DNA of 64,000 bases from Azonexus sp. (GTDB lineage: Bacteria > Pseudomonadota > Gammaproteobacteria > Burkholderiales > Rhodocyclaceae). A program made the position numbers and the translations under genes. The notes beneath the pieces were generated by a model. The model did no database searches and was not told where the DNA came from. It worked only from the letters and a program-made list of their open reading frames with translations. Shown here one piece after another: positions 1-47,765 of this stretch (within the stretch, counting starts at the first letter, position 1; every line of letters starts with the position of its first letter). The stretch covers positions 1-64,000 of the forward strand of contig NZ_JAKLLH010000019.1 of assembly GCF_023150235.1 (NCBI RefSeq), given 5' to 3'.

Positions 1-137
1 GACCAGTTCGTGAATGCATTTGGAATATTGAGGCCGTCATGGAAATTTGGAGCCTCGTTAAATTCATTAAAAACAATGGCTTGCATTTTATCACATGACG
101 GCTTCGGATGGGGTGGGGGGAATCTGACAAAGTAGAA

Positions 138-246
138 TTACGGTCAACCGGGAAAATCTGTTGATTTCTGTGATGAAGTCAGCGGCCTTGAAAGAGCGGG
201 CTGGTATGGGAACAGTGCCCCGGATTGATCTGAGCTGATGGTGGAT
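138..246. repeat. 109-bp direct repeat, copy 1
   Basis: This 109-bp stretch recurs in the same orientation at 5517-5625 with one mismatch (C versus T in GGATTGAT[C/T]TGAGCTG). It opens with TTACGGTCAACCGG, a degenerate form of the palindrome found elsewhere in the window. The two copies bracket 5.3 kb holding toxin-antitoxin modules, a transposase and broken genes. The rest of 1-316 has no gene that I can support. Confidence 0.9.
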
Positions 247-3699: not shown

Positions 3700-4833
3700 T
3701 TACGCCGCGTTCCGTTCAAACGCCTGGCGGGCGGCCCGGATGCCGCGCAGGTATTTCACCTGGCGGACAGCGCAGAGTTCAGTGAGATGCGCCGGCGCAC
3801 CGACGGCGCTGCCGAATTGTTTCATCAAGTCGGTAGCGCAATCGATGAAACGCTCCGGATCGATGGCCAGGCGTTGCAGCAGTTTGGGCACCCGCTCGGT
3901 AATCAAGCCACGCTTGCCCGGATGCAGGCTGCGACCGGTGGTTTCGACCAAGTCGAGGTAATCCTCGAAGGCAAAGGGAATCGCGGCCCGCAGGCGGCAG
4001 GTGCCGTCGAAGGTGAGCAGGGGCTGCAAGGGCAAGGCGGCCAGATGGGTTTCCTGGCGTAGCGTGAGGATGGAGGTGACCTTGGTGCTCTTTTCGTTCG
4101 CCACGCTCGCCGTCACCGCGGGTGCCTCGTTGGTGGCGGTGGTCGGGTCATGAGGGATTTTGGCTTGGTGGGCGGGTTCAGCCTCTGGCTTGAGTTCTGC
4201 CATACGCTCGGCGACCGAGGTGTGCTCAGATTCTTCTGGCGTTTCGGCCATTTTGGCGCGAATCGGATTGAGATCGACATAAGCCATGGCGGTGAGGATG
4301 GCCTGTTCGTCGAGCAGCGCCTGGCTCTTGAAACGGCCTTCCCAGAAATGTCCGGTCACTTCGTCTTCGGCATTGGCTTGACGGGCGACGGTCTCGTTCA
4401 GGATGCGCATGAACCAGGAAATGTCGCTCAGGCGGGCACGGTAGGTTGTTGTCCATTCATCAATGGCATTCAACGTGGCCTGATCCATCTCGCCGCCCTG
4501 CCCGGACAGCAGGCGCTGCACCAGCATGGGCCCATCAAACAACTGCGTCCAGCGGCGCAGCACCTCTTCGTTGCTCCAGCCCTGGGCTCGCTCGGCATCC
4601 ACGCGCAGCACCAGGTGATAGTGATTGCTCATCACGGCGTAGGCAGCCACATCGATCGCGAACACGCCGGCCAACTGCTTGACCCGATCGACAATCCAAC
4701 CCCGACGATGGTCGTGGTTCTTGCCAGTATGGGCATCATCGCCACACAGAAAGGCGCGGCGGACGCAGCGATTCACCACGTGATACCACGGGGTGTCGGC
4801 GAGGGAAATGAGGGTGGAACGCGGTTTGGTCAT
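3700..4833 (-). mobile_element. REP-associated (Y1) tyrosine transposase
   Basis: A 377-residue RAYT/IS200-like transposase. The start (LADTPWYHVVNRCVRRAFLC) and the AYAVMSNHYHLVLRV segment carrying the HxH metal motif (HYH) are diagnostic; the tyrosine region and VDLNPIRAKMAETPEESEHT follow. Such enzymes mobilise REP palindromes in other genomes. Length is longer than the roughly 150-residue IS200 enzymes and matches proteobacterial RAYTs. Its ATG overlaps the TGA of the DUF2442 gene (4830-4833), so it is the last cistron of a three-gene unit. Confidence 0.9.
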
Positions 4834-5472: not shown

Positions 5473-5516
5473 CCCTTTGATTTTTAGGAGAACGCCTTGG
5501 CTGGGACTTGGTTGAG

Positions 5517-5625
5517 TTACGGTCAACCGGGAAAATCTGTTGATTTCTGTGATGAAGTCAGCGGCCTTGAAAGAGCGGGCTGGTATGGGAACAGTGCCCC
5601 GGATTGATTTGAGCTGATGGTGGAT
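5517..5625. repeat. 109-bp direct repeat, copy 2
   Basis: Second copy of 138-246, same orientation, 108 of 109 bases identical. The near-identity implies a recent duplication or recombination exchange. Confidence 0.9.
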
Positions 5626-6799: not shown

Positions 6800-9700
6800 T
6801 TAGGCGATGAAATCAAAGTTATCGATATGGAACTCGCTTGCTGCCAGTGCCGGATTACCAACCAACTTAACCAAATTGGTAACTGTCAACTCGCCTGCGG
6901 CGAAGTCGGTTGCGCTTGCAGCAGCATCAACACGTGCGAGTGCGACATATGCATCGGTGCCGTCGCTGTAAGCCACGAGGAAACCATCACCTGCAGCAAC
7001 ACCAGCGTGGCTGATTTCGTAGTCGCCAGTTTCGAGCGCGTTCTCGACATCAGAGGTGGTATCGAAGGTCGTGCCACGCAGAACGAAGAACGTTGCGTTA
7101 GCAGTTGCTGCAACATCACCCGTTACCTCTTGAATCAGGCCCTCGGTGTCAGCGGTAGAGGCGCCATCATCAAGATTGACAAAGTCGATATTGAAGGCCG
7201 TTTCAAGGGCCGAGATATCGAACTCGATCTGGTCACCGCCGGCACCGTAAGCAAAGCCGGTCACACTATCCACACCAGTTGCTGTCAAGACAACGACGTC
7301 GGTAGTTGCCGTGGTTTCGGTCAGGATGATGGTATCGCTACCGGATCCGCCAGTGATGCTATCGCCACCCTCACCGCCAATGATGGTATCGGCACCAGAG
7401 CCCGCATCAATCACGTCTGCGCCCGCATTGCCGGTGATCGAGTCGTTACCCGTGCCTGTCGTCGCATTCAGAACTGCAGTTACCGCACCCGCCGTAACGA
7501 TGTCAGCACCGGAACCGGTGGTGATGGTCGTCGTGCCGGTGGTGGTGCCGCCGGTGAAGGTCAGGGCAACGGTAGAGGCAGAAGCATTAATCGTAATAGC
7601 CTCAGTACCGGTCACACCGGCTGCATTGATGGTAGCCAGGTTCGCAGAACCAACGATGGCCGTTTCAACGATGATGTCGTTGTCACCAACCAGCGTCAGC
7701 GTGGTCAGATCAGCAGCATTCAGCGTCCTCAGTTGCAGATTGCCGTCAGCCGAGTTCAGTGTCAGAGACTCTTCGTTATCAACTGTCACAACCGTTGCGT
7801 CGTCAGCATCAATCGTATCGGTTAGCGCAACAACCGTCAGTGCATCAGCACTGGTGTCGACCAAACGAGTCAGCGAGGTTGTACCACCCGGGACATCCAG
7901 GCCAAGCGTGGTCAAAGCAGAACCCACATTGGTCAGCGTCAGGGCAGCCCCCATGCTGTTAACTTGCGTGAAGGTGTTATTCACGAAGATAGCCATGTTT
8001 TGCGATTGACCGGTTGCAGAGAAACTCAGCGTTTCGAAGCCGGATACACGTGCGCCAGTCGTACCCGTCGTAATGGCGCTATCGGTCGACAGAATGTCGG
8101 TACCGTCACCACCCACCAAGGTATCACCCTCAGTCAGCAGGGTGTTGGTAGTAATCACCGTATCGTTACCTGCACCACCATTAATGCTGACAGAGCCGCC
8201 TACGGAATCGGTGATCTGATCGTTACCGTCACCACCAGCCAGGGTGTCATTGCCGCCAGCGCCGGCGATAGTGTCATTACCAGCGTCACCAGTGATGGAA
8301 TCAGCAGCCGTGCCACCCGTCAGGCTGTCGTTACCTGCACCGCCGACGATAGTCGACGCAAAGTTACCCACGTCGATCGTGTCTTCGCCAGAAGAACCGG
8401 TGATGCTTGCCGTACCACCCGTACCTTGAGCGGTCGCATCAATCGTCAGGGTAGGAGTACCCGCAGCCTGAGCGGTCAGACCAGAGGCGTCCACAGTGAG
8501 CAGCGCGGTGGAGGTGGTCGTCAGGCTCGTATCAATGTGAACTGCATTGGTGCCCCGAAGGGTCAGCGACACACCAGATGCAACGCTGTCCGGCGTAATA
8601 GTCAGAGTGCCAATATCTTGCTCGGGACCACCTGCATTGGCACCACTATTGATCGTCACAGACTCATAGCCAGTTGAAGTGACATCTTGACCATTGAAAA
8701 CATCAAGATTCAGACCAGTCGTGGAGTTAATCGCTGTGTTATTCAAGGTGACTGCATCAGTAGTGCCTGCGCCTGTATCGGTCACGGTCAGGCTGCCGTC
8801 CATATCGTTGGTGTTACCTGCGGCAGTACCACCGATGTTTACCGTCAATGATCCCGCGGGGCCGGTAATCGCATCGCCACCAGTCATCAGCGTACCTGCA
8901 GCAGATGCAAAAGACAGGTTCACGGTGTTGATAGAAGTTGCGATATTGCCAACTGCAAGCGTACCGTCAAAGGCATCGCTAATGGTCAGAGCCTCGACGT
9001 TCGCAATGGTGTAGGTGGTAGGAGTAGCCGCATCAAGCGCATTGGCCTGTGCCATCACCGTGCTCAGCGTATCGGTACCTTCGCCGCCATCAACGGTGTC
9101 GTTGGCATCTAGAGCGGTATGCACAATGGTGTCGTTACCTGCACCACCATTGATGGACATATCGTTGCTTTCAGCAGAGACGGTCAGGCTGTCATTACCG
9201 GCACCACCCAGCACCGTCACGTCGAGTGCTGCCCCAATGGCAGTTTGATCCGTGGTGGTCAGGGTAATAGCCCCCGTTGCTGAAGAAGCGTCGTACTTAG
9301 AAACACTCAGCGTAGTCGCATCGAAAGTAACGGTTTGATTGGCTGCGCCTGCAAACGACACGGTATTAGCAGCGTCAGCGGCAAGCTCGTAGGTGCTCGC
9401 AGAACCCGATGCGGTCACATTGATGGTCTCAATGCCGTCGATCTGGATTTCAGCGGCAGCAGCACCGGTAACAGCCGTTACTTCAAGTGCGACAGCCTGG
9501 GAACCGGTAGTCGAAGCAAACTGGAATTCTGTCGTTTGCGATGCAACATCAGCAACGGCCAGATTGGTCACGCCCGCAGCCAAGCCAGAGAAGGTCGCCG
9601 CAGCAGAACTACCCTGGTTAACAACCGTAGCAAGGTCAGCTGCATTACCCAAACCCAGCGTCACAGCGCCGCTGAAGTTTGCATTGACCACTTCGATACC

Positions 9701-10163: not shown

Positions 10164-10213
10164 GATGGTCTGTCCGAGCATTTTTGCCCAAGTATCACGG
10201 TCGACCGTAAAAA
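10164..10213. repeat. 50-bp direct repeat bounding brnTA, copy 1 (with palindrome)
   Basis: Starts GATGGTCTGTCCGAGCATTT and ends with the palindrome ACGGTCGACCGT (10197-10208) plus AAAAA. The same 50 bases, two mismatches, occur at 10811-10860, on the other side of brnTA. The rest of the 9923-10213 interval shows no gene. Confidence 0.9.
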
Positions 10214-34878: not shown

Positions 34879-37800
34879 CTACCCCCGTGCTTCCCGCGGT
34901 GCCGTTTCGTCCAGCCAGGCGGATCGCCAGCTTTCCTGGAACTTGTCCAGCGTCCAGTCGCGTAGTACCGCGGTGCGCAGGGCGTCGCCGGTGCTTGCCA
35001 GGGCATCGCGGTCGGCGACGGCCTTGCGGATGGCTTCGATCCAGGATGTCGGAGCGTTGTCGACAAGGGTGACTGGCAGGCCGCAGCGATAAGGCGTCAG
35101 GTCGGTGGCGATGACCGGATAGCCGAGGACGCCGTATTCCAGCAGCCGGAGATTGCTCTTGCACTCGTTGAACAGGTTTTCCTCCAGTGGCGCCAGGGCC
35201 AGGTCCAGGTCCAGCGTGGCGAGCTTGGGGGCGTATTCGGCAAAGCTGACGCCGCCGTGGTACTCCTGGATCAACTCACGGGTGCCGGCCGGGAACATGC
35301 CGAAGAAGACCCAGTCGACTTCGTCCTTGAGGGCCTCGATGACCGGTAGCAGGATTTCCAGGTCGCCGGTATGGCTGCTGCCGCCGGCCCAGCCGACGCG
35401 TGGCTTGGGGTCCTTGCGGCGGCGCGGTGTCAGGGTGCCCCAGATCGCGGTATCGATGCTGTTGGGGACGACGCGAACCTCGGGCGCGAGGTCGCGCAGC
35501 ATCTCGGCCAGGGGTTCGGTGGTGACGATCAGTCGGTCGCAGAGGCTGAGGGAGTGGGTAATGCGCTCCCTGAGATCGGCGGGAAGATCCTTGCGGTGCA
35601 CACTCTTTTCCGGAACGGCCCACATCAGGTCGTCCAACTCGAAGACGATGCGGGTCTGCGGGAAGTGACGGCGATAGTTGGCGAGCGCAGCCTGGTGGAC
35701 ATCGAGCACGTGGCGCTGGAGATAAAGGATATCCGGCGCCATGCGGGCTACATCGAGAGGCTGGAAGGTGCCAAAACGGCACCAGCCGTCGACCTGGTTG
35801 GCCTTGAGCGCAGCGTTGAAAGGCTCGACGACGCGGTAATTGCCACAGCCGGCGTTGTCCATCGGGATGGCCAGCATGCGTGGCAGCGGGCGCCAGGTGA
35901 GCTTGAGCTTGGTCAGTTCCGAGCGGGGCTCGATCACGCCCTCGGTGTTGAAGAGAGAGAGGTTGCGGTTGTAGCTGGGGTCGTTGGCCAGAGCGTCGAG
36001 CCAGAAATCGTAGAGGCGATTACGGTCGACCTCGTAAACCCCCTGTTTTTCATCATCGTGGATATCCGAAAGAATCAGCAGATCGAGGGCTTCGTGCATC
36101 AGTGTCGCCTCCGGTGTCCACACGTGGGCGAGCCCCTGAGCGCGCAAGCGCAGGCACAAATCGGCGTCGGCGAAGAGATAGCGGAAGCCCTCGTCGAAGC
36201 CACCGGCCTCGACGAAGGTGGCGCGCTTGAGCAGCAGGCATTCCAGCGACAGCGCCTGACGCTGCTGCGTGCAATGCAGGCGACCGAAATAACCCGGTTG
36301 GTCGAATTTGATCCCTTGCCACGGTGAAGCGGCATCGCCGAGCAGGCCGAGAATGCGGCCGGCGGAAACGATCTGTCCCTGTTTGTCGATCAGTCGGCCG
36401 CCGACGCAGCCGATACCGGGACGGTTGGCATGTGCCAGCATCGCCGTCAGCCAGTTGGGCGAGAGCGGAACGCAATCGGCGGCCAGGAAGAGCAGGTAGT
36501 CGCCGCAGGTCTGGGCAGCGCCGATATTGAGCAGACGGGTATAACCCTGTTCGATGCTGTCGGCCGGGAATACGCGTAGCCGGTCGTTATCGCTGCCGTC
36601 GATTTCCTGCAGGTAGGCGAGGGTTTCGGGATCGTCGGATGCGGCATCGATGACGATGATTTCGCACTGCAGCCCGTCGGGCAGTTGGGCCGTTTGCGCC
36701 AGCAAGGCCGCCAGGCTGCGGCGCAGCGTATCCGGCCGGTTGTGGCTGAGCAGAACGATGCTGACCATGGCTTCGGCCGGCAATGGGTAGTCGACCCGAT
36801 AGGTGCCGGGCAGGCTGCCGGTTTTTACGCTTTCCGCCGGTAGACCGTGGTTTTCCAGGTGGCGGGCCAGGGCTTGCTGCCCGAGTTGGAGCAGTTGCTC
36901 GGTTGGCTGCTTGGCGGTGCTGCGTTCGCGGACGAGGTGGAAAAGGATATCGGGTACGTGGCCAAAGACGGCCGGGCCATATTGTTCGAGCAGCCGCAAT
37001 TGCAATTGGTATTCGGCCATCCCGGCAAATTCCGGCGCATAGCCGCCCAGTTCCTCCAGGGTCTGGCGCGAGATCAAATAGCAGTCGCCGATCCAGGGCA
37101 GGCTATGCAGGTAGTCGGTATCGAAATCCGGCTTGAAGAAGGGTTGGTCGAAGACCCCGGTCTTGCTGTCGCGCCGGTCATCGTCGGCATAAATCAGCTT
37201 CCAGTCGGGATGGGTGTGGGCCGCTTCGAGTAGCAGGAGTAAAGCGTGCGGCGCGATCTGGTCGCCGGCATTGAGCGAAAGAACCCAGTCCGCATCGCTG
37301 TCGGCAATGACCTGGTTCAAGGCCGCATGCGGCGCGGCGCTGCTTTGGTGCCAGCGGATGCGAGTGCCCGCGCGCAGTTCATCGGGAACTTCCGCCGGAG
37401 AGGCAATCACCACCTCGACGTGGTCGTAATATTGACCGGCCAGGGCCTGGATGCTCGCGGTCAGCGCCTCGAAGTATTCCGGCAGCAGGTAGATCGTGAT
37501 CAGTACTCGCGGTGCGCTGCCGCGCTCGCTTTCCCACTCAGCCAAACGGCGCTCGAACATTTCGGCTTCCGGCCGGGTGATCAAATGCGAGCTGAGGAAG
37601 TTCGCATAGACCTGCTCCGGTGCCTGCTGGAATTGCCCGACCTGTTCGTAGCCGACCAGCTGTTCGCGACCCGGTTCGACCAGCATGAAGAACTGCAGGC
37701 TGCACATCTCCATCAGCTCTTCCTGGCTGACATTCCGGATCACCATCTTGCCGGTATCGATGTCGCAGGGGCAGTGATCCTTGTAACGCTGGAAAATCTC

Positions 37801-39693
37801 GTTCAAGCGGGTGTCGATGCCAAAAACGTTCTTCACCACGTGGTAGCCGGTTTCGTGGAAGAAGCGCTGCAACTCCTTGTAAGTGAAGAAGCGAATATGG
37901 GTGATATCGAGCAGGCCGAGGCGTTCGTAGCGGAAATAACCCTTCGCCAGGTCGTCCATCAGCGCCAGGTTGCGGACGTTGGGAATCGAGACGGCGATCT
38001 GCGCGGTGGGTGATAGCCACGGGCGCAGAACCTCCATCACCTTCCACGGGTTGTACATGTGTTCGAGCACATCGGCGAGAATCACCGCATCGACGCTGCC
38101 CGGCTGCAGCCCGGCAGCGGCCAGGTCGGTTTCCTCGAATTTGCCGGTGAACACCCGGTCCAGGCGCTGGCTGGCAATGGCGGCGGCCGAGCGGTTGAGC
38201 TCGAAACCCCAGACCGTGCCTTCGGGATATTTCTGCTTGAAGGCGGCGCCTGTGCCGCCGGCGGCGCAGCCGATATCGAGCAGCATCTTCGGCGCGTTGG
38301 TGAAGTAATCGACCAGGTCGCCGCGGGCCCCGCCGTGGTAGCCGGTGGCGTCGATGTCGGGTACGTCGAGGCAGTCCTGCCAGACGTAGCCTTGATGGAT
38401 CGCGGCTTGCTGGCGATACTGCTCGCTCATCAGCTCGGCGACCCGGAGGCTGGCCTTGCCGTCGACGCCGATGTTGTAGCGCGGGGCGGCGGCTCGCATC
38501 CGGTCGATCTTGTCTTTGCGCCAGAGCGGATCGGCGATCAGCTTGAGCAGGGTCTTGCCGAGTTCGTCGGCCGGGACTTCGACGATGCCGCTGTCGCCGT
38601 CGAAACTGGGACCCAGGCGCAGGCCCCAGTCGGTCATCAGGTTGATCGCCGGGGTGCCGCAGAGCAGGGCTTCGACCAGGATGTTGGAGTCGATCCCGAT
38701 CAAGACGTCGGCCGCGACGACCCAAGGTTCCGGGGCGTCCTGCAGATAATGGAAGCTGTCACGGTCAACGCCCAGTTCGGCGCAAATTTCGCTAAAGCGT
38801 TGTTTGCCGAACTCGTAGTTGTGCGGCCGATCCTTGATGACCGCGTTGATCTCCAGGCCTTGTTCGCGCAATTCGCGGATCGTTTCGATGAAGGCGGTCA
38901 GCGAGCGGCCGAAAATATGTTCGTCGGAGATCGCGCTCAGATTGTGGGCCCAGGTCGGCGAGAAGACGACGATCGGGGCTGCGGGGTCGAGTCCGTAACT
39001 TGCTTGCAGCTGCGCTTTTTCTTCCGCCCGCCGGGGCAGGCGTTCGGGGTAGTCGTCCCAGGCCGGATTGCCGGTGATGCGGATACGGTCGCCGCCGATC
39101 CCGGCATCGAGATAGCTTTCGACGCTGCGTTCGCCATATACCGCCAGGGTGTCGCAAATCAAGCGTTCATGGACGGTGTAAGGGCGGGCCAGCGCGACGC
39201 CGTGCAGCAGATGGATGCTGGGGATCTTGCGCAGGCGGCTCCAGTAGGCGGTGGTCTTGCCCAGTGCCAGCAGGTCCTCGCTGAGGATGGTCAGGCCGAT
39301 CTGGTAGGTTTCGCTGGCCTTGTCGAGCATCTGGAGCAGCGAGATCTGGGCCGGCACGGTTTGCTCGGCGACCTGGGTCACTTCGGCTGCGAGCGCTTCC
39401 GGGGCGATTTCCCAGCGGGCCGAGAAGTCGTTCCAGCCGAGCGTCTGCTGGTGGTCGCCGATGGTCGTGGCGATGGCGCGCGCGCGCTCGCGGCAGAGGC
39501 TGACGTCGGCTTCGGTCAGCAGGTCGTCGATCAGGACCAATTGTCCGTTGGCGCGGGCGACGGCATTGACCAGCTCCTGCGATGCCTGGAAGCGGGGGGC
39601 GAGAATCGCGGTGCCCGGGTTTTTGGCCAGAAACGGCTCGACGACTCGGGCAAAACGGGGCCAGAGCAGGCAAAGGATGGCGGGAGTCTTCAT
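34879..39693 (-). CDS. Five-domain glycosyltransferase/methyltransferase mosaic protein
   Basis: 1604 residues without a signal peptide or membrane helix. Rough order: 1-430 GT-B/CDP-glycerol-transferase-like region (FSPTWAHNLSAISDEHIFGR); 460-620 SAM methyltransferase (MLLDIGCAAGGTGAAF, DAVILADVLEHMYNPWKV); 725-960 GT2 domain (WVLSLNAGDQIAPHALLLLL, LIYADDDRRD); 974-1215 second GT2 domain (MVSIVLLSHNRPDTLRRSLA, RYLFADADLCLRLRAQG); 1271-1600 GT4-like domain (RVVPNSIDTAIW, PRVGWAGGSSHTGDLEILLP). Probably a cytosolic polymerising or sequentially acting enzyme for a surface or flagellin glycan. The last gene of the 21-kb minus-strand run. Confidence 0.82.
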   Translation of the reverse strand: MKTPAILCLLWPRFARVVEPFLAKNPGTAILAPRFQASQELVNAVARANGQLVLIDDLLTEADVSLCRERARAIATTIGDHQQTLGWNDFSARWEIAPEALAAEVTQVAEQTVPAQISLLQMLDKASETYQIGLTILSEDLLALGKTTAYWSRLRKIPSIHLLHGVALARPYTVHERLICDTLAVYGERSVESYLDAGIGGDRIRITGNPAWDDYPERLPRRAEEKAQLQASYGLDPAAPIVVFSPTWAHNLSAISDEHIFGRSLTAFIETIRELREQGLEINAVIKDRPHNYEFGKQRFSEICAELGVDRDSFHYLQDAPEPWVVAADVLIGIDSNILVEALLCGTPAINLMTDWGLRLGPSFDGDSGIVEVPADELGKTLLKLIADPLWRKDKIDRMRAAAPRYNIGVDGKASLRVAELMSEQYRQQAAIHQGYVWQDCLDVPDIDATGYHGGARGDLVDYFTNAPKMLLDIGCAAGGTGAAFKQKYPEGTVWGFELNRSAAAIASQRLDRVFTGKFEETDLAAAGLQPGSVDAVILADVLEHMYNPWKVMEVLRPWLSPTAQIAVSIPNVRNLALMDDLAKGYFRYERLGLLDITHIRFFTYKELQRFFHETGYHVVKNVFGIDTRLNEIFQRYKDHCPCDIDTGKMVIRNVSQEELMEMCSLQFFMLVEPGREQLVGYEQVGQFQQAPEQVYANFLSSHLITRPEAEMFERRLAEWESERGSAPRVLITIYLLPEYFEALTASIQALAGQYYDHVEVVIASPAEVPDELRAGTRIRWHQSSAAPHAALNQVIADSDADWVLSLNAGDQIAPHALLLLLEAAHTHPDWKLIYADDDRRDSKTGVFDQPFFKPDFDTDYLHSLPWIGDCYLISRQTLEELGGYAPEFAGMAEYQLQLRLLEQYGPAVFGHVPDILFHLVRERSTAKQPTEQLLQLGQQALARHLENHGLPAESVKTGSLPGTYRVDYPLPAEAMVSIVLLSHNRPDTLRRSLAALLAQTAQLPDGLQCEIIVIDAASDDPETLAYLQEIDGSDNDRLRVFPADSIEQGYTRLLNIGAAQTCGDYLLFLAADCVPLSPNWLTAMLAHANRPGIGCVGGRLIDKQGQIVSAGRILGLLGDAASPWQGIKFDQPGYFGRLHCTQQRQALSLECLLLKRATFVEAGGFDEGFRYLFADADLCLRLRAQGLAHVWTPEATLMHEALDLLILSDIHDDEKQGVYEVDRNRLYDFWLDALANDPSYNRNLSLFNTEGVIEPRSELTKLKLTWRPLPRMLAIPMDNAGCGNYRVVEPFNAALKANQVDGWCRFGTFQPLDVARMAPDILYLQRHVLDVHQAALANYRRHFPQTRIVFELDDLMWAVPEKSVHRKDLPADLRERITHSLSLCDRLIVTTEPLAEMLRDLAPEVRVVPNSIDTAIWGTLTPRRRKDPKPRVGWAGGSSHTGDLEILLPVIEALKDEVDWVFFGMFPAGTRELIQEYHGGVSFAEYAPKLATLDLDLALAPLEENLFNECKSNLRLLEYGVLGYPVIATDLTPYRCGLPVTLVDNAPTSWIEAIRKAVADRDALASTGDALRTAVLRDWTLDKFQESWRSAWLDETAPREARG

Positions 39694-40949
39694 GTGCGGT
39701 TACCGGAAAAAACGCCGAAATGGCGGGTCAGCAGAGCTTCCATCAAGTGGTATTCGAGGCCGGGAGCGAGCGGGATGCCTTTGTGGGTCAGCGATTCGCC
39801 GGCCACCGAGGCGGTGGTCCAGGTGCGGATCATGTCCAGCGTGGCATCGTCGATCTGTTCTTGCAGCAGCCAGTCATCGAACAGGTCGACAAAGGCCGGG
39901 GGCAACAACTCGCGCCAGCTGAGTTGCGGGAAACTGCGGCATAACTCGGTGAGCAGCAAATGCAGCAACTGGCGGTTGCGCGGCCAGGCCAGGTGGCGAC
40001 AGAGCGCCTGCTGCCAGCCCGAGTCGAGCAGGTGAGGCAGGGCCGTCTCCGGCTGGCTGCTGCAGGCAGCGATCCGTTCATTGAATTGGCTGTATTGCGC
40101 CAGCCAGGCGGCATTTTCGGCCGGGGCATCGGAGTTTTCGAGCAAGGCAAAAAAGCGGCAGGTGCTGCGGCTGGTCAGGAAGGCCGGGAAGGACTCCTCG
40201 AGAAAGACGGCAAAATCGAGCAGGCGATTGTCGTGGCCGAGCCAGGAAAGCAGTCGTTTCCAGGCAAAACGATCCTCCAGCGGCTTGATCCACTGGTTGT
40301 AGGCAGGTGGGCCGAAAAAGCCGCCGACCGGGATGATGGCGAGGACGCGCAGTCCGTTCTCGCTGCACCAGGCGGTCAGGTCGCTAACCCGCATGTGTGA
40401 CATGTAGGCCCCGTGTGCGCCATCGTTGAGGCCGGCTTCGGCGATCTGCCGGGCCTGTTCGGCAGGGAGCGCGGCTTCCAGGTGGTCGAGTGAGTGGATG
40501 TCGAAGAGCATCCGGCCGCCCGGACGGACGACCCGCTTCCATTCCTGCAGCACCGGTTGCCAGTGCGGGAAGTGCACCATCACGTTGAGCGAAATCAGGG
40601 TATCGAAGGCCGCATCGGCCACCGGCAATTCGCGGACATCGCCCTGGCGCAGCTCGATCGGCGTTTCGGCGGCCTGGCGCCGGGTTTCGTCGAGCATCGC
40701 CTGCGAACTGTCGATGCCGGTCACCCGGTAGCCGCGCCGCGCCAGCGGCAGCGAGCCCCGGCCGGTGCCGATCCCGACGTCGAGGATGTCTTGGCCGATC
40801 ACGCAGCGGTCGACGATGTGGCGCTCGACGCGGTTCTTCAGCGGGTTGGTGCCGCTGCTGTCGGTCATCCGCATGGCGTACCAGGCGACCATGTCAGGGT
40901 TGGTCCAGGCCTGGGTCTTCCAGGCGATCAGCGAGTTTTGATCAGTCAT
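39690..40949 (-). CDS. SAM-dependent methyltransferase with C-terminal helical domain
   Basis: 419 residues. Methyltransferase fold at 45-165: DILDVGIGTGRGSLPLARRG, VTGIDSSQAMLDETRRQAAE, VRPGGRMLFDIHSLDH. The C-terminal 200 residues are helical with no recognised motif (SYSQFNERIAACSS-like turns). ATGA overlap with the mosaic transferase and an eight-base overlap with the acetyltransferase upstream place it in the glycan pathway; the sugar methylated is unknown. Confidence 0.78.
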   Translation of the reverse strand: MTDQNSLIAWKTQAWTNPDMVAWYAMRMTDSSGTNPLKNRVERHIVDRCVIGQDILDVGIGTGRGSLPLARRGYRVTGIDSSQAMLDETRRQAAETPIELRQGDVRELPVADAAFDTLISLNVMVHFPHWQPVLQEWKRVVRPGGRMLFDIHSLDHLEAALPAEQARQIAEAGLNDGAHGAYMSHMRVSDLTAWCSENGLRVLAIIPVGGFFGPPAYNQWIKPLEDRFAWKRLLSWLGHDNRLLDFAVFLEESFPAFLTSRSTCRFFALLENSDAPAENAAWLAQYSQFNERIAACSSQPETALPHLLDSGWQQALCRHLAWPRNRQLLHLLLTELCRSFPQLSWRELLPPAFVDLFDDWLLQEQIDDATLDMIRTWTTASVAGESLTHKGIPLAPGLEYHLMEALLTRHFGVFSGNRT

Positions 40950-41517
40950 GACGGGCCTTTTCGGCTTGAGCAGTCTGGTTCAGGAAATCGTTCCGGGTCA
41001 TCCCGAATTCGACAATGTCTTGGTAGTTGCCGGCGACGAAGGCCGCTTCGCGGCGGCGCCCCTCTTCGCGCATGCCGAGCGCCAGGGCCAGTCGCTGCAT
41101 GGCGAGGTTGCCGGCAAAGGTACCGCATTCGATGCGCTGCAGGTTGAGGCGCTGGAAACCGTGACGGCAGAGCAGGCGCCCGGCTTCCAGGCCGTAGCCC
41201 TGGCTGCGGCAGGCGGCGTCGCCAAGCAGGATGGCGAATTCGGCACGGCGGTGGATCGGGTGGATGGCTTGCAGGGCGATGTTGCCGATATGGCGGCCAT
41301 CGAGCAGTTCGATGGCGAGAATCAGCGCGTCCTGGCGACCGTGGCTGGCGGCAATGTAGCGACGGGCTTCTTCGCGGCTGTAGGGAAATACGCCGTGGGT
41401 GTTGCCGCTATTGGTTGCCTGGTCGTTGAGCCAGACCGGGTAATCGCCGTCGGCGTCAGCTTCGGACAGCGGGCGCAGGCGCAGGCGCTCGCCCTGGAGC
41501 AGGGTCAGCGGCTTCAT
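40942..41517 (-). CDS. GNAT acetyltransferase (RimJ/PseH-like)
   Basis: 191 residues. GNAT pattern: LRLRPLSEADADGDYPVWLN, HIGNIALQAIHPIHRRAEFA, ILLGDAACRSQGYGLEAGRL (acetyl-CoA loop Q/RxxGxG/A variant), LNLQRIECGTFAGNLAMQRL. The W-L-N-D opening is shared with PseH-like sugar N-acetyltransferases. It may acetylate the amino sugar made by the aminotransferase encoded next to it (ATGA overlap), or serve as PseH. Confidence 0.75.
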   Translation of the reverse strand: MKPLTLLQGERLRLRPLSEADADGDYPVWLNDQATNSGNTHGVFPYSREEARRYIAASHGRQDALILAIELLDGRHIGNIALQAIHPIHRRAEFAILLGDAACRSQGYGLEAGRLLCRHGFQRLNLQRIECGTFAGNLAMQRLALALGMREEGRRREAAFVAGNYQDIVEFGMTRNDFLNQTAQAEKARHD

Positions 41518-42797
41518 GCGGCAATGCCCCGCAAGGCATCGAGGTGGCGGTCGATTTTGTGGAAGGCAGCAATTACCTGATCGAGTTCGGCCGGACCCAG
41601 ATCGGCATGGACCAGCGGCGAGTAGAGCAATTCGTCAAAGTGCATGCGCTCGGTGACCGGGCACAGGCCACGCTCATAGCTGACCTCGGGGCGCAAGGAG
41701 AAGGGGAAGTGCGCCTTGCCGTAAGCGATTTTCTGCTGGTAGAGCGGTTGCAGGTAGAGCGGCTCGACGTAACCGGCTGCGATCTCGACCCCCTCCGCGC
41801 GCAAGGCGGCGAGGTAGGTCGCACGGCTGACGCCGGTGGCCGCAGCCGAATACTTGAGCGGATAGACGTACCAGCCATGCGTGCAGCCGGTGGCTACCTG
41901 CGGCAGGCTGAGGCCGCGCAGCCCCTGCAGGCCCTGGCTCAGATAGGCGGCATTTTCCTGCCGCCGGGCCACCAGTTGCGGCAATTTTTTCAACTGCTCG
42001 CGGGCAATCGCGGCTTCGATTTCGGTCATCCGGTAGTTGAAGCCGACCAGATTGCTCAGCTCGCCTTGATACCCCATGTGCTTGACCACGGCCTCGCCGT
42101 GGTTGCGGATCAGTTGCAGGCGCTCGGCCAATGCCGGATCGTCGGTGACGACGACGCCGCCTTCGCCGCAGTGAATGGTCTTGTGGTAATTGAGGCTGTA
42201 CACCCCCATGTGCGCCAGCGTGCCGGCCGCCTTGCCGTGGTACAGCGCGCCGGGAGCCTGGGCGCAGTCTTCGATCACGGTCAACCCGTGGGTACGGGCC
42301 AATTCCATGATCGGCGCGAAATCGGCCGGGTGGCCGAAGATGTCGACCACGATCACGGCCTTGGTCCGCTCGCTGAGCTTGGCCCGGATCGTCTCGGCAC
42401 TCAGGCAGTAGGTGTCTGGGTCGATGTCGGCAAACACCGGCACGGCGCCATAGACCAGCGCGGCGGCGGCCGAGGCCGACATGGTGTAGGGCGAGACGAT
42501 GACCTCGTCGCCGGGGCCGACGCCGGCGGCGCCGACGGCAGCGTAGAGGCCGGAGGTCGCCGAGTTGACCGAAACCGCGTGGGCGACGGCGAAATCCCGG
42601 CACCAGTCGGCTTCCAGTTCGCGCACGCGCGGGCCACCGAAGAAATCGGGCGTCCAGGCACCCAGGAATTGCGACAGCACGCCGCTGTCGAGCACGGCCA
42701 TCACCGCCTGTTTTTCCTCGGCGCCAATGGTGCGATAGACGGGAAACGGGGTGTTGCGTACCGGCGTGCCGCCGAGCAGGGCGGGGAGGTCGTTCAT
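41514..42797 (-). CDS. DegT/DnrJ/EryC1-family sugar aminotransferase
   Basis: 427 residues, PLP-dependent. VSVNSATSGLYAAVGAAGVG binds the cofactor phosphate, VIEDCAQAPGALYHGK holds the Asp/Gln pair, and the Schiff-base lysine is in SLNYHKTIHCGEGGVVVTDD. It transfers an amino group from glutamate to a keto-sugar nucleotide. Longer than PseC and from a different branch, so it likely serves a second sugar. Followed by an acetyltransferase gene, a usual pairing. Confidence 0.88.
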   Translation of the reverse strand: MNDLPALLGGTPVRNTPFPVYRTIGAEEKQAVMAVLDSGVLSQFLGAWTPDFFGGPRVRELEADWCRDFAVAHAVSVNSATSGLYAAVGAAGVGPGDEVIVSPYTMSASAAAALVYGAVPVFADIDPDTYCLSAETIRAKLSERTKAVIVVDIFGHPADFAPIMELARTHGLTVIEDCAQAPGALYHGKAAGTLAHMGVYSLNYHKTIHCGEGGVVVTDDPALAERLQLIRNHGEAVVKHMGYQGELSNLVGFNYRMTEIEAAIAREQLKKLPQLVARRQENAAYLSQGLQGLRGLSLPQVATGCTHGWYVYPLKYSAAATGVSRATYLAALRAEGVEIAAGYVEPLYLQPLYQQKIAYGKAHFPFSLRPEVSYERGLCPVTERMHFDELLYSPLVHADLGPAELDQVIAAFHKIDRHLDALRGIAA

Positions 42798-42844
42798 GCG
42801 TCGTGATTCCTGTGCAATGGCGGATTGATCCGCATTTTAAGCAA

Positions 42845-43966
42845 TTAGCGTTCCATCATCGAGTCGAGCAGGTCGAGCAGGTCGAGCAGGCGCTGGGTGG
42901 CGCCGGCCGGTGGACAGGCGCGGCGGGCGCCCTGGCGCAAGGCGGCCAGTGCGGCGTCATCCTGCAGATAACGGCGGATGACCGGGATAAGCTTAGCCAT
43001 TTCGTAGATGACGGCACTGGCGCCGCTCCGGTTGCTGGGCAAGGGGTCGTCGGCGGGGGCCTGGCCGGGTTGCAGGCTGAGGACCGGGCAACCCAGGCAG
43101 CAGGCTTCGAGCAGCAGCATCGAATGGATGCCGAGGACCAGGTCGGCGGCCTGCACCAGCTGGCGCGAGGAGTGGCCGGTGTCGACGGCGATGGCGCTGC
43201 GACTCGGGCTGCCCGGCCGGCACCAGCGGTCATACTTCCCCGCTGTTTCGCGCGGGTGGGGGCGGATCAGCAAGGTCGGTGGTGGCGCGACGGCGGGGCC
43301 GTCGAGGGCGGCGATCACTTGTTGCAGAATGGCGTGTTCGTCGGGCAGCACCGGCGATGGTCCGAGCAGGGCGTGCAATTCGGACAAGGGCTGGGAAACG
43401 AAAACCAGCAAACGGGCAGTGGGGGCGATCTCCAGCGTTTGCCGCAGCCGGGCGCGTTGCCCGGGGTCGAGTTGCTCGGCTTGCAAAGCGTCGAAGCCGG
43501 GATGGCCAACGATGCTGAGCTGCGCCGCCGGGCAGCCGGCGGCGCGCATGCCGCTGGCGGCGACTTCATCCATTACCGCGATCTGCTCGGGCCAGAACGG
43601 CTTTTTGTCAATTTCGAAGCGTTGACCGTAGTTGGACCAGAAATCGAGCACCGCCAGCGTCGGTCGGGCGGCGGCACGGGCGGCCTGCCAGTAGCGGCGT
43701 TCGAGATTGAGTTCGTTGCACGAGGTCGCGCTCAGCAACAGCCCGGCCGCGCGGCAGGCCTGGTCGATCGCTGTCGGGTCGTGGGGTGCCGGTTCCGGCT
43801 GCCAGCCCTGGTTTTGCCACAGGGTGAAGGCGGGGCCGTAAGCGAGCAGGCGGACCGGTTGGTCGCGTTGCCGCAGCGCTGCCAGCAGCGGGCTGAGCGC
43901 GGCGGCGCCGCCGGCGTCGCCGGCTAGGCAGAGAACGCTTGCGGCGGCGGCCGGCAGCTTCAGCAT
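42845..43966 (-). CDS. GT-B-fold protein of the glycosylation locus
   Basis: 373 residues. LLIRPHPRETAGKYDRWCRP and AADLVLGIHSMLLLEACCLG have the look of CDP-glycerol transferase/UDP-GlcNAc-epimerase-like GT-B folds, as does LAVLDFWSNYGQRFEI. No catalytic role can be assigned. The C-terminus LLDLLDLLDSMMER comes from a 9-bp tandem repeat, GTCGAGCAG three times (42863-42889), which could vary in copy number without frameshift. Overlaps the oxidoreductase gene by seven bases. Confidence 0.6.
   Translation of the reverse strand: MLKLPAAAASVLCLAGDAGGAAALSPLLAALRQRDQPVRLLAYGPAFTLWQNQGWQPEPAPHDPTAIDQACRAAGLLLSATSCNELNLERRYWQAARAAARPTLAVLDFWSNYGQRFEIDKKPFWPEQIAVMDEVAASGMRAAGCPAAQLSIVGHPGFDALQAEQLDPGQRARLRQTLEIAPTARLLVFVSQPLSELHALLGPSPVLPDEHAILQQVIAALDGPAVAPPPTLLIRPHPRETAGKYDRWCRPGSPSRSAIAVDTGHSSRQLVQAADLVLGIHSMLLLEACCLGCPVLSLQPGQAPADDPLPSNRSGASAVIYEMAKLIPVIRRYLQDDAALAALRQGARRACPPAGATQRLLDLLDLLDSMMER
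42863..42889. repeat. 9-bp tandem repeat in a glycosylation gene
   Basis: GTCGAGCAG occurs three times in a row; on the minus strand it encodes LDL repeated at the C-terminus of the GT-B-like protein. Length changes would be in-frame. Confidence 0.85.
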
Positions 43967-44970
43967 CTCACCGGGCGGCCGCTGGCCAGCGAGCGGCAGG
44001 CGGCGTCGGCGAGGCGCAGGGCAGCCAACGCATCGGCGCCGCTGCAGGCCGGCGGGCGCGCGTCGCGGATCGCGGCCAGCAAATCGGCGACCGCGTGCAG
44101 CAGCAGGTTGCTCATCAGCGTGTCTTCCGGGTTGCCGTCGGCCAGGGTCCGGTAGCCGGCGTAGAGCGGGCTGTCGATCACCGGCTGCCAGCAGGCGCGA
44201 TGTCCCGACTGGTCGATGCGCAGACGGCCGGCATCGCCGCTGAGCGCGATCTCGAACAGGCTGTAGGCGCTGTGGTTGGCGGCTTGCAGCTGGGCGACCA
44301 GGCCGCTGGCAAAATGGATCATCAGTTGCGGGCTGGGATCGTCGCCGAAGGCCTCGCCGCCGGGATAGGCCATCACTTCGGCCGGACCGTCGGCGGCGGC
44401 ACCGAGCAGCAGCCGCAGCCAGTCGAACCAGTGCGTGCCGTTGTGGCGGATGCCTTTGCTGTAGCAGCCGCTGACGGAGTTGATCCGGCCCAGCGCGCCT
44501 GCCGCCAGGCGCCGGGCCAGCGCCTGCTGGCTGGGCGCGTAGCGGCGCGAGTAATTGACGGCGAGGACGACGCCGCGCTGGGCAGCAGTCGCGACCAGCT
44601 GGCTGGCGGCCGCGACCTCAAGGGCCAGCGGCTTTTCTGCGAGCACTCCGCGCAGGCCGGGGCTGAGCAGCACTTCGGCGAGGATCGCCGCGTGTGTGTC
44701 GTCCGGTGTGCACAGGCTGACCACTTCCGGCTGTACCGCCGCCAGCAGGCTGCGGTAATCGCTGAAGGCGGGAACCCCGAGGCGGGCGCCGGCGGCAGCG
44801 GCAACTTCGGCGCGGGCATCGCAGACCGCCACCAGTTCGCTGTCCGGGCAGGCCTGGTAGGCGGCGGCGTGCGAGGCAGCCTGCAGCGCCGGGTGGTCGT
44901 CAGGATGACCGATGGCGATGCGGCCGCAGCCGATCAGCGCGGCGCGTAGGGGGCGAGGGGGAGTGATCAT
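43960..44970 (-). CDS. Gfo/Idh/MocA-family sugar oxidoreductase
   Basis: 336 residues. N-terminal Rossmann fold LRAALIGCGRIAIGHPDDHP and VSLCTPDDTHAAILAEVLLS, catalytic EKPLALEV (Glu-Lys-Pro), then RRYAPSQQALARRLAAGALG. NAD(P)-dependent oxidation or reduction of a sugar or sugar nucleotide. The start codon lies within the first 55-bp direct repeat; the defence-like cassette is immediately upstream, and originally pseI would have been. Confidence 0.87.
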   Translation of the reverse strand: MITPPRPLRAALIGCGRIAIGHPDDHPALQAASHAAAYQACPDSELVAVCDARAEVAAAAGARLGVPAFSDYRSLLAAVQPEVVSLCTPDDTHAAILAEVLLSPGLRGVLAEKPLALEVAAASQLVATAAQRGVVLAVNYSRRYAPSQQALARRLAAGALGRINSVSGCYSKGIRHNGTHWFDWLRLLLGAAADGPAEVMAYPGGEAFGDDPSPQLMIHFASGLVAQLQAANHSAYSLFEIALSGDAGRLRIDQSGHRACWQPVIDSPLYAGYRTLADGNPEDTLMSNLLLHAVADLLAAIRDARPPACSGADALAALRLADAACRSLASGRPVRC

Positions 44971-45021
44971 GCTTAATCGGCGAGCAGTTCGGGTTTTACC
45001 GGTGTACAGGCGTGGACCGTG
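44967..45021. repeat. 55-bp direct repeat, downstream copy (remnant of pseI 3' end)
   Basis: 54 of 55 bases equal 46719-46773, same orientation. On the minus strand it reads the end of pseI (HACTPVKPELLAD, stop TAA) followed by the ATG of the oxidoreductase gene. The only difference changes the pseI stop from TGA to TAA. It marks one edge of the inserted ATPase/TOPRIM-like cassette. Confidence 0.95.
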
Positions 45022-45027
45022 AGAAGG

Positions 45028-45528
45028 TTATTTAGAGAACAGCCATGTAAACACGCCTTTGTCTCGCATTCGCTGCAATTCGCCTAGGTTGCACTGCAGA
45101 TGTCGGTTGTGCCAAGTCTGATTCGTATTGTTTGGGCAGTCGGACAGCAGAGTACGAGCGATGGCCTCGTTATTTGATTGACCCAGTGTTTGCTTCAAGT
45201 CCTCGCTTTCTTTGTCATCAATTCCAAGCATGAAAACGCGTTCGGCACAGGAGCGATTGTCTGTTATCCCCTGTAAGCGCTGCTTGCGGGCGCTGTAATC
45301 ATTGTCGAAATCCATTAACAGCAAAACATGCATGTGTTGATTGGCATCCAGCAGCTTGACGTTCTCGCTCAAGGTTTCGAAGACCTTCGGCCATCCTCCG
45401 GCAGGGGGTTTGACATCCAAAACATTGGGGTTGATGTACGTGAGGGTCTTAACCCGGTTCATGATTTCACGATAGGGTTTGTCTTCCAGGTAAACGACCA
45501 GATGTGCCTGGTATCGATTGACGGCCAT
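45028..45528 (-). CDS. TOPRIM-like protein partner of an AAA ATPase
   Basis: 166 residues. HLVVYLEDKPYREIMNRVKT has the strand-Glu pattern of TOPRIM motif 1, and HVLLLMDFDNDYSARKQRL gives the DxDxD-like motif (MDFDND). This suggests a metal-dependent nuclease or nucleotidyl domain, as in OLD-family or PARIS-type partners, but length and sequence match no named partner that I recognise. Its start codon overlaps the stop of the ATPase gene by one base. The lower GC content and AT-rich codons differ from flanking genes, indicating transfer. Confidence 0.55.
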   Translation of the reverse strand: MAVNRYQAHLVVYLEDKPYREIMNRVKTLTYINPNVLDVKPPAGGWPKVFETLSENVKLLDANQHMHVLLLMDFDNDYSARKQRLQGITDNRSCAERVFMLGIDDKESEDLKQTLGQSNNEAIARTLLSDCPNNTNQTWHNRHLQCNLGELQRMRDKGVFTWLFSK

Positions 45529-46631
45529 TAGTCCAGCTCCCCATTTTCATAGGCCTGCACAGGGTCGGGACTCAGGAATGTTCTATCCTCGAGTCGCTCT
45601 TGTCGTGTAGGTTGTAAGTGCGATGGGCGTGACAGTACAAAGCAGTTATGCCCGGAGAATTCGTACATTACCCTTGCGTTGTGGCTAGTCAGGATGAGTT
45701 GGGCTTGGCCGTTGCTGGCTTCAAACTCCTTCCGGCATGCGATGATGAAATGGCTCAATTCCGGTAAGGCAATAAACTGATCCGCCGCATCCCACAGGCA
45801 CAAAATGGGACGGCCACTACTGATGATGGCCAGGAGCATTGCGGTCAGCAGGTAGGTTTTTTCACCGTCGGCGAGCTTGCTTAGATTCAATTCGATGGAG
45901 GATTGCAGGTCTTTAAAAGTGCATAACAGTTCACGCTCTTCCCGGCCGGTGACTTCAAGCTTGAAGGAATCGAAATCCGGCATCCACTGGCGCAAGTAAC
46001 GCTCCATCTTGCCGTAAAGAGCCGGTTGCAAGGCGAGGTTGTAGCGAATCCAGTCCACGAGATTGGCCAGGTTTTTATGCAGGTAGGGGCTTTCTTCCTT
46101 GCTGGAGGGGGATACCTGTGCTGGCGCTGGATCCAAGTACAGGATGTTGCCTAGCCATGTACGAAATACCGCAATCGGATCGCTATCGTTGCGTGTCGAG
46201 ATCAGGGGCAGGCCGACATGGTGCCAGTCGAGGGTGAATTCAGCTCTGTCGCCCAGTTGGGTCTTGCCTCCTTCGCGAACAAAAATGCTCTGGCCGTCAA
46301 CACTCAACGACTCCTGCTGCACCTTGAGTGAATGAAAATGCAGAGGGAGGTCGATTTCCAACCGATAAAGGTAGCTGCGGTTTCCCAGAGAAGTGCTGAT
46401 TTCAAAAACCATTGGTTTGCTGTGGTCAAGGAAGGCAAAGTCTTCTGGTTTGAGTAAATCACTGACTTTCGTTTCCCCGCGGCCAATTCTTTGCAAAATC
46501 TCGAAGGCGGCAAATACCGTTGATTTCCCCGCGCCATTACGACCCAACAAAAGTGCCGAACTGATATTGCTCAAATCCAGCTCGAAATTCTGTAAACAGC
46601 GGAAGTGATGGATATAGAGCTTATTGATCAT
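45528..46631 (-). CDS. AAA/OLD-like ATPase (SMC-type) of a putative defence cassette
   Basis: 367 residues. INKLYIHHFRCLQNFELDLS and the Walker A LLGRNGAGKSTVF open the ABC-type head; NLSKLADGEKTYLLTAMLLA is the signature-like loop; PILCLWDAADQF is a variant Walker B with D-A-A-D where D-E is usual; LILTSHNARVMYEF is the H-switch. These are features of AAA_15/AAA_21 ATPases found in anti-phage pairs (PARIS, AbiL, RloA and others). The partner is the TOPRIM-like gene downstream. Confidence 0.75.
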   Translation of the reverse strand: MINKLYIHHFRCLQNFELDLSNISSALLLGRNGAGKSTVFAAFEILQRIGRGETKVSDLLKPEDFAFLDHSKPMVFEISTSLGNRSYLYRLEIDLPLHFHSLKVQQESLSVDGQSIFVREGGKTQLGDRAEFTLDWHHVGLPLISTRNDSDPIAVFRTWLGNILYLDPAPAQVSPSSKEESPYLHKNLANLVDWIRYNLALQPALYGKMERYLRQWMPDFDSFKLEVTGREERELLCTFKDLQSSIELNLSKLADGEKTYLLTAMLLAIISSGRPILCLWDAADQFIALPELSHFIIACRKEFEASNGQAQLILTSHNARVMYEFSGHNCFVLSRPSHLQPTRQERLEDRTFLSPDPVQAYENGELD

Positions 46632-46718
46632 GGTGTGGCCTGATGGGGATGCTTTTAACGAGTGCTGACAAGAATTCTATCTTGCGAAGATTGTTGCTCG
46701 TTGGGCTGGTTGGGGGAT

Positions 46719-46773
46719 TCATGCTCAATCGGCGAGCAGTTCGGGTTTTACCGGTGTACAGGCGTGGACCGTG
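46719..46773. repeat. 55-bp direct repeat, upstream copy (3' end of intact pseI)
   Basis: Contains the last 13 codons of pseI, its TGA stop and, two bases later, an ATG that in the uninterrupted arrangement would start the oxidoreductase gene. Together with 44967-45021 it frames a 1.7-kb insertion. Confidence 0.95.
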
Positions 46774-47765
46774 GCTGTCACCCGTTTGCCGATGATCGCG
46801 TCGTAATGCTTGGGCGCCATCCCGTAACCGGGGCGGACGCTGCGGATGCAGTCGGCAGTGATCACCTCGCCGGCCTGCAGGTCGCGCACGAAGTAGAGCG
46901 AGCGGCGGAATTTGACATTGCCTTGCTCGCTCGATTTGCGCGCGTAATTGACCTGGCCAAGCGCTTCCCAGGCGGTCCGCGTGCCCCGGCAGAGTTCGGC
47001 CAGCCCGGCCGGCTCCAGCGAGAAGCTGTCGTCGGGGCCGCCGCCCTGACGGTCGAGGGTGAAGTGCTTTTCGACGATGCAGGCACCGAGCGCGATGCTG
47101 GCGATGGCGGTGGTGTTGTCGAGGGTGTGGTCGGAGAGCCCGACCAGGGTGCCGAAGCGCTGCTGCATGTCGAGCAGGGTGCGCAGGTTGTAGTCGGCGG
47201 CCGGTGCCGGGTAGCCGCTGACGCAATGAAGCACGGCGAGTTCGCGGCAGCCGCCGCTGCGGGCGGCGTCGACCGCTTCGCCGATTTCCTCAGCGTCGGC
47301 CATTCCGGTCGAAATGATCAGCGGCTTGCCGGTGGCGGCGACGTAGCGGATCAGCGGCAGGTCGATGGCTTCGAACGATGCGATCTTGTAAGCCGGCGTA
47401 TTCAGGTCTTCGAGCAGGTCGACCGCAGTGGTGTCGAAAGGTGTGCTGAAAATGGCGATGCCCAGCTTGCGGGCATGCGCGAACAGCGGCTGGTGCCAGT
47501 CCCAGGGCATGTGCGCGTTCTGGTACAGCTGGTACAGCGTCTGGCCGGCCCATAAGCCATCGTTGATCTGGAATTCCGGCAGTGACGAATCGAGGGTGAT
47601 CGTATCGGGGCGGTAGGTTTGCAGCTTGACTGCGTCGGCGCCGGCCAGCTTCGCCTGTTCGATGATGCGCAGCGCCGTGGCCAGCGAACCGTTGTGATTG
47701 GCCGACATTTCGGCGATGACGTAGGGCGGCTGGTCGCAGCCGATACGGCGGTCAAGAATTTTCAT
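46725..47765 (-). CDS. pseI: Pseudaminic acid synthase PseI
   Basis: 346 residues of the NeuB/PseI family. It condenses the 2,4-diacetamido-trideoxy sugar with phosphoenolpyruvate. Motifs: YVIAEMSANHNGSLATALRI, AVKLQTYRPDTITLDS, PAYKIASFEAIDLPLIRYVA, VGLSDHTLDN, VEKHFTLDRQGGGPDDSFSL, and the C-terminal SAF domain FRRSLYFVRDLQAGEVITAD. The pattern after HFTLDR fits PseI better than NeuB. Overlaps pseG by 14 bases. Confidence 0.9.
   Translation of the reverse strand: MKILDRRIGCDQPPYVIAEMSANHNGSLATALRIIEQAKLAGADAVKLQTYRPDTITLDSSLPEFQINDGLWAGQTLYQLYQNAHMPWDWHQPLFAHARKLGIAIFSTPFDTTAVDLLEDLNTPAYKIASFEAIDLPLIRYVAATGKPLIISTGMADAEEIGEAVDAARSGGCRELAVLHCVSGYPAPAADYNLRTLLDMQQRFGTLVGLSDHTLDNTTAIASIALGACIVEKHFTLDRQGGGPDDSFSLEPAGLAELCRGTRTAWEALGQVNYARKSSEQGNVKFRRSLYFVRDLQAGEVITADCIRSVRPGYGMAPKHYDAIIGKRVTATVHACTPVKPELLAD

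Follow-up and report, generated by a model that had tools for sequence, protein, structure and literature searches.

The window, a 64,000-nucleotide (nt) stretch of contig NZ_JAKLLH010000019.1 from an Azonexus genome, carries a pse glycosylation operon with a two-gene insert between pseI and an oxidoreductase gene. On the minus strand the order is pseI, a repeat, an 87-nt leader, genes for a 367-amino-acid (aa) ATPase and a 166-aa protein, 6 nt, the repeat again and the oxidoreductase gene. The features are listed here in that order:

46725..47765, minus strand: pseI (NeuB and SAF domains, by domain matches), intact
46719..46773, minus strand: repeat copy U (upstream, 55 bp), made up of the pseI 3' end with its TGA stop, then GC and ATGA; its stop-codon state agrees with the empty site described below
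46632..46718, minus strand: leader of the insert, 87 nt
45528..46631, minus strand: AAA/ABC-SMC-type ATPase, 367 aa (AAA_21 and AAA_15, by domain matches)
45028..45528, minus strand: 166-aa partner, TOPRIM-like, with invariant E15, D73 and D75 (by alignment)
45022..45027, minus strand: right end of the insert, 6 nt between the stop of the TOPRIM-like gene and the downstream repeat
44967..45021, minus strand: repeat copy D (downstream, 55 bp), made up of the pseI 3' end with its TAA stop, then the oxidoreductase ATG
43960..44970, minus strand: GFO_IDH_MocA-type oxidoreductase (by domain matches), intact

The two 55-nt direct repeats start 1752 nt apart, are identical at 54 of 55 positions and lose their identity immediately past both ends. 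Each consists of the last 49 nt of pseI including the stop, followed by GCATGA, which holds the oxidoreductase ATG. The lone mismatch is a T/C difference in the pseI stop codon, which reads TAA beside the oxidoreductase gene and TGA beside pseI. A 61-nt query covering the repeat matches the genome at these two places only, and the GC content is 0.505 for the insert as against 0.636 for the window. These features confirm a well-bounded insertion at the pseI/oxidoreductase junction, with a duplicated target and both neighbours intact, as the original prediction had read the locus. It had also held that the cassette contains no recombinase, and neither of the two genes matches one.

The duplicated ATG (46722-46720) starts a 33-codon open reading frame that ends at 46621, 11 nt into the ATPase gene, and translational coupling of the two is possible. 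The ATPase stop and the 166-aa gene share one base (TAATG). With this frame running into the ATPase gene and the one-base overlap between ATPase and partner, the insert looks tied into operon translation. A sigma-70-like promoter had no match in 44900-46900, which argues weakly for reliance of the insert on operon transcription.

The junction is found without the insert in relatives. A search of 199 relatives with the oxidoreductase gave four matches at an expect value (E) of 1e-45 or below, the own genome among them. The match in the same genus (genome G064, locus L125) aligns to window positions 34946-45021 and 46718-47755 at DNA identities of 83% and 89%. The two alignment blocks overlap by 56 bp in G064, which amounts to a single 55-bp copy, with pseI followed directly by the oxidoreductase gene. 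The G064 junction is thus an empty site, of the sort that had been suggested as a check on the insertion. At two loci of one other genus (L126 and L127), pseI likewise adjoins the oxidoreductase gene without an insert at the protein level. At the base that differs between the window repeats, the copy beside pseI carries the G064 state. Several positions common to both window repeats differ from G064, which places the origin of the duplication in this lineage or in a near relative. Compared with G064, pseI is a mosaic, with identity of 0.73-0.88 over the first 400 nt and 0.88-0.96 beyond, suggesting that exchange within pseI has probably happened. The protein of the pseGH-like gene upstream of pseI is just 52% identical to its G064 counterpart over residues 9-385.

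The inserted module appears to belong to an uncurated ATPase plus TOPRIM-like family whose small gene is unnamed in the libraries searched. A profile of four ATPases, applied to 84,980 species genomes in a non-exhaustive scan prefiltered by two short motifs, found 84 relatives among 104 candidate stretches, and 80 were kept. The pair of ATPase and small partner occurs mostly in cyanobacteria, and also in proteobacteria and others. At 64 of the 80 loci a frame of 150-180 aa with an N-terminal ED motif starts at the end of the ATPase match or at most 400 nt from it; the remaining loci, without such a frame, are cut by a contig end, are broken, or fall outside those limits. All 37 partner proteins in the alignment have E15, D73 and D75. 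A conserved E and DxD form the pattern of TOPRIM nucleases, and the partner is probably, as predicted from this alignment, a TOPRIM-like nuclease. In a sequence profile search the partner profile matched no PDB chain at E up to 1. The 38 partner members scanned have only weak, scattered Pfam and PADLOC matches, and the window protein has no NCBIfam match.

The window ATPase has AbiLi as its best PADLOC match (7.5e-18), and the AbiLi, HEC-01A and AriA models each match all 25 ATPases scanned. Its Walker-B region reads WDAADQ, compared with WDEP in the 23 other rows of the 24-row ATPase alignment. Having lost the Walker-B glutamate, the window copy may function poorly or not at all, or may bind ATP only. 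At E up to 1e-25 the ATPase finds only itself in 369 genomes of the class, and it has no relative in phage records or, in two alignments, in viral contigs. Relatives of the ATPase, 37-38% identical, occur in two plasmid records, both cyanobacterial; the partner gene is present in one, and no match to it was found in the other. As a single query the TOPRIM-like protein finds nothing in genome contigs or plasmids. A second module copy in the same genus (genome G010; locus L025, about 7911-9474, on the same contig as L104) has both genes broken, and lies between a dynamin-like gene and a NERD-helicase gene that both match defence models.

Two other family loci have settings of their own. In a Chromatiaceae assembly (L109, 6918-9984) the module begins 3 nt after a recA-like gene and ends 12 nt before a recX-looking gene (both named by eye), an unusual place for a defence-like pair, and its ATPase frame is shortened to 291 aa. 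In Parabeggiatoa (L036, 3155-4836) a HEC-01B protein (2.4e-73) adjoins a second ATPase, identified by eye, about 400 bp downstream of the family cassette, so that two distinct pairs of ATPase and small partner lie side by side.

PARIS (AriA/AriB), which passages of PMC10568477 describe as a proposed class 4 of OLD proteins, also makes an AAA ATPase and a TOPRIM protein from separate genes. Its AriA model matches 25 of 25 family ATPases at E up to 1e-10, and the AbiLi and HEC-01A models match the same 25 just as widely. The module differs from PARIS in its partner, which is only about 165 aa, and no AriB model is among the matches of the 38 partners at E up to 0.1. HEC-01, a PADLOC candidate with a two-gene layout (as also seen beside L036), shares the combination of ATPase and small partner. 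All 25 ATPases match HEC-01A models, and 10 of the 25 also match a model that bears the name HEC-01B. It differs in that the best HEC-01B model matches only 3 of 38 partners (best E 4.3e-4), the window protein not among them, as against 2.4e-73 for the HEC-01B protein beside L036. AbiL resembles the module through the AbiLi match of the window ATPase and differs in that no AbiL model is among the matches of the 38 partners. The module is not filed under OLD, PARIS or HEC-01 despite the likeness. It is probably an anti-phage or anti-plasmid system of this general type, and a defence role is plausible given the homology of the ATPase to the AbiLi, HEC-01A and AriA models and the TOPRIM-like partner. 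The defence-like surroundings of the L104 copy are the one further pointer.

The closest relatives of the window copy repeat the pattern with other targets. In a tree built from 75 family ATPases and an outgroup sequence (76 in all), it groups with copies from Marinobacter persicus (L033), Marinospirillum minutulum (L034) and a Thiomicrospira assembly (L035) with a support of 0.949. L035 ends inside the ATPase gene and has no second flank, and all three members with both flanks (window, L033 and L034) show a flanking duplication of the preceding gene. In the window the duplicated sequence is 55 bp of the pseI end. In L034 it is the end of a DegT aminotransferase gene together with its stop, identical over 63 of 63 bp, and in L033 it is 971 bp of a Tle1-like gene, at 91% identity, that break off two codons short of the stop codon. 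The three duplicated sequences align no better than shuffles, and no common core was detected. The window and Marinospirillum repeats share, by eye, an in-register GCTCGCC heptamer; it was rejected as not significant, as 0.21 of shuffles gave an equally good local alignment. The right end of the insert lies 5-6 nt past the TOPRIM-like stop in the window and L033 and 60 nt past it in L034. The neighbours at the four loci are pseI, an aminotransferase with neuC and neuB homologues, a sugar transferase with an epimerase, and a polysaccharide flippase, which suggests surface-glycan loci in all four members.

L033 provides the most informative duplication. A relative (G907) has one Tle1-like copy at the same place, matching both flanks, and the U, D and G907 copies are mutually equidistant (0.910, 0.903 and 0.905). 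Nonsynonymous divergence (dN) between U and D is 0.023-0.026 and synonymous divergence (dS) about 0.37; over the pairwise comparisons of the L033 copies and G907, dN is 0.023-0.030 and dS 0.37-0.40. The L033 copies, with a dN/dS of 0.06-0.07, have diverged as functional alleles. Changes unique to the 5'-truncated D copy comprise 7 nonsynonymous and 29 synonymous substitutions, and an old truncated fragment would not be expected to look this well selected, so two working alleles were joined recently. The copies fit a cassette that arrived with a foreign gene copy, or an insertion between tandem paralogues. Across 4155-15301 of L033 there are three Tle1-like copies, separated by PDDEXK_3-type genes, a gene for the MqsR toxin and further cargo, and the sugar-transferase locus has CCACGGAA-type repeats between its genes.

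L034 has a broken second cassette gene. A search for the ATPase in 293 genomes of Marinospirillum's order, at E up to 1e-30, found that genome itself only. In a Marinospirillum relative (G867) the same aminotransferase/neuC junction has the 63-bp stretch once and carries a different cargo, made up of HicA, HicB and one more gene that has no Pfam match, so this junction accepts varied cargo.

Repeats were also sought across the wider family. From 81 rows (80 loci and the window), those with short flanks were dropped: 10 below 200 bp for a strict test with 400-bp flanks and at least 35 bits, and 11 below 300 bp for a separate test with 2-kb flanks. At loci without a detected partner frame, the cassette was taken to end with the ATPase match. 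The strict test detects a flanking repeat at 6 of 71 loci, compared with 2 of 4970 mismatched flank pairs and 6 of 1063 shifted intervals of the same loci (Fisher p 3e-5 against the latter; the shifted intervals overlap one another, and these p values are rough). L033 fails the strict test because its long repeat exceeds the flank; with L033 added by hand, a rule not applied to the controls, the count becomes 7 of 71 (p 4e-6). Outside the clade the strict test gives 4 of 68 against 6 of 1063 (p 0.002). With 2-kb flanks a repeat is present at 10 of 70 loci against 20 of 337 controls (p 0.02).

Most family loci therefore have no flanking repeat, and the repeat is not a feature of the module. The original prediction had named cassette homologues without a flanking repeat as a result that would refute it, and in the family at large these are the majority, with 65 of 71 loci lacking one in the strict test (64 with L033 added) and 60 of 70 with 2-kb flanks. 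As a mark of the whole family the flanking repeat is rejected on the same counts. It records instead the arrival of this clade's copies. The repeats at L036, L038 and L073 were not counted as gene-end duplications, as they may be dispersed repeats, other copies having been sought only in family loci. L067 has duplicated pieces of an antitoxin gene, one copy with an internal deletion, and is a possible further case.

One-sided homologous insertion at gene ends is the explanation we favour for the clade, and we give it about an even chance of being correct. The two-gene module would have reached the pse operon on a DNA molecule carrying the end of a pseI gene, and one homologous exchange, presumably RecA-dependent, would have taken place in that end. 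The other end of the insert may have been closed by the same exchange, if the donor was circular (Campbell type), or by illegitimate joining, in which case the event would be homology-facilitated illegitimate recombination. The module would then come to lie right after the pseI stop, with the resident pseI 3' end and the oxidoreductase start left downstream, both neighbours intact and the operon presumably read through. Recombination between the repeats could restore the empty site. In favour of this scheme are the single-copy empty site in G064, the duplication in all three clade members with both flanks, the functional divergence of the L033 alleles around the insert, the single 63-bp copy and other cargo at the G867 junction, and the mosaic pseI. 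The three unrelated targets, the three lengths and the lack of a detected shared core argue against a site-specific recombinase and against a fixed-length transposase. The original prediction had left entry as site-specific or homologous. Site-specific entry is not supported, since the duplicated pieces (55, 63 and 971 bp) come from unrelated genes and no sequence common to them was detected; homologous entry fits better.

There is precedent in the literature. Illegitimate recombination assisted by homology in transformable bacteria, in which one homologous and one illegitimate end capture foreign DNA, as may have happened in the window, is described in PMC2884548, and repeat-mediated duplications in transformation in PMC3784515. 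Among the matches listed (titles and abstract starts), no paper ties homology-facilitated illegitimate recombination to a recurrent defence-like cassette that duplicates gene ends, and none was recognised as describing the cassette or the duplication pattern.

Several observations weigh against one-sided homologous insertion. No donor molecule or circle was seen, and the window and L034 copies are too alike to show import. The right end, 5-6 nt past the stop in two of three cases, is tidier than random illegitimate joining. In L033 a third Tle1-like copy at 74-75% lies downstream, so insertion between older tandem paralogues is also possible there. In L034 two more genes stand between the downstream copy and neuC, so the empty site is less clean than that of the window, and the G867 cargo has no flanking repeat of its own. 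The duplication signal is strong in the clade and weak elsewhere: with 2-kb flanks the loci outside it give 7 of 67 against 20 of 337 (p 0.18), and some of their repeats may be dispersed elements.

Another explanation, unlikely if still a serious candidate, is that a linear cassette fragment was captured while a break or stalled fork was being repaired, the target being copied at one side by a staggered break or template switch. Such repair gives duplications of any length without imported homology, and the lengths do vary (55, 63 and 971 bp). Local copying also predicts the near-identity of the window copies (54 of 55) and the identity of the L034 copies (63 of 63). It does not predict the Marinobacter copies, which are as far apart as each is from the copy of another genome and have diverged under purifying selection. 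This explanation would also leave selection alone to account for three insertions that all fall in glycan loci, at a gene end or a few nt from it.

The pseI 3' end might have served as the attachment site of a tyrosine or serine recombinase that was supplied in trans or has been lost, making the 55-bp repeats attL and attR; we regard this as improbable. Integrative elements at gene 3' ends insert after the gene and leave its 3' end repeated on the far side, and in tRNA- or guaA-type integration the gene is restored. The window insert likewise follows a gene whose 3' end is repeated on the far side, and the repeat length, position and restored gene resemble such integration. It differs from these elements in having no integrase or other recombinase, and its close relatives use unrelated genes and duplications of 63 and 971 bp with no shared core detected. 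The lack of ATPase relatives in phage records and viral contigs also speaks against this explanation.

The ATPase and TOPRIM-like nuclease may themselves be the mobility machinery, with paired distant nicks and fill-in producing long, variable target duplications, which we consider slightly less probable again. The insert consists of these two genes and little more, its right end falls 5-6 nt past the second gene in two cases, and the duplication occurs in all three clade members with both flanks. This would leave to be explained the 64 of 71 family loci without a repeat (strict test, L033 added) and the divergent flanking alleles in L033. The window ATPase has also lost its Walker-B glutamate and the second gene of L034 is broken, losses that may both postdate insertion. 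In its fullest form, a long shot, the pair would be a minimal self-mobilising element that nicks a gene end twice, inserts after the stop with a duplication of tens to about 1000 bp, and doubles as host defence. If true, this would be a mobile element that has no transposase, recombinase or reverse transcriptase.

The repeat length, 55 being a common assembler k-mer size, would fit an assembly artefact in which a contig from elsewhere was merged into the operon through an overlap of k-mer length. This is hardly credible given the internal mismatch, the coherent operon order and the analogous duplications in two other genomes. A transposon with a short, constant target duplication does not fit the lengths of 55, 63 and 971 bp.

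The window and its genome contain other repeats. A 12-base core, ACGGTCGACCGT, occurs at window positions 10197, 10844, 14023, 16685, 30816, 54565, 55899 and 59732, eight matches where none is expected. The perfect palindrome CACGGTCGACCGTG is present 187 times in the own genome, 164 times in G064, twice in G010 and not at all in G044, and a TTTT-N10-core-N10-AAAA form has 25 sites in the own genome and none in 30 relatives (a set that does not contain G064). The palindrome arms vary between many copies and stay mutually complementary by eye; the T-run lies on the 5' side, so this is not an ordinary terminator. A 115-nt direct repeat (window 132-246 and 5511-5625, 97% identical) flanks a region with a transposase-like gene at 3700-4833, which by eye looks REP-associated, and with copies akin to TTAAATGACCCTGACCCCTTT scattered through it.

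Defence genes turn over rapidly, and many lie in no recognisable mobile element. A compact module entered at gene ends in all three clade cases that could be checked, and in the window both neighbours kept working. The flanking repeat would permit clean loss of the module. If shown by experiment, one-sided homologous insertion would offer a simple way to shuffle defence genes without a recombinase, and duplicated gene ends would be its signature.

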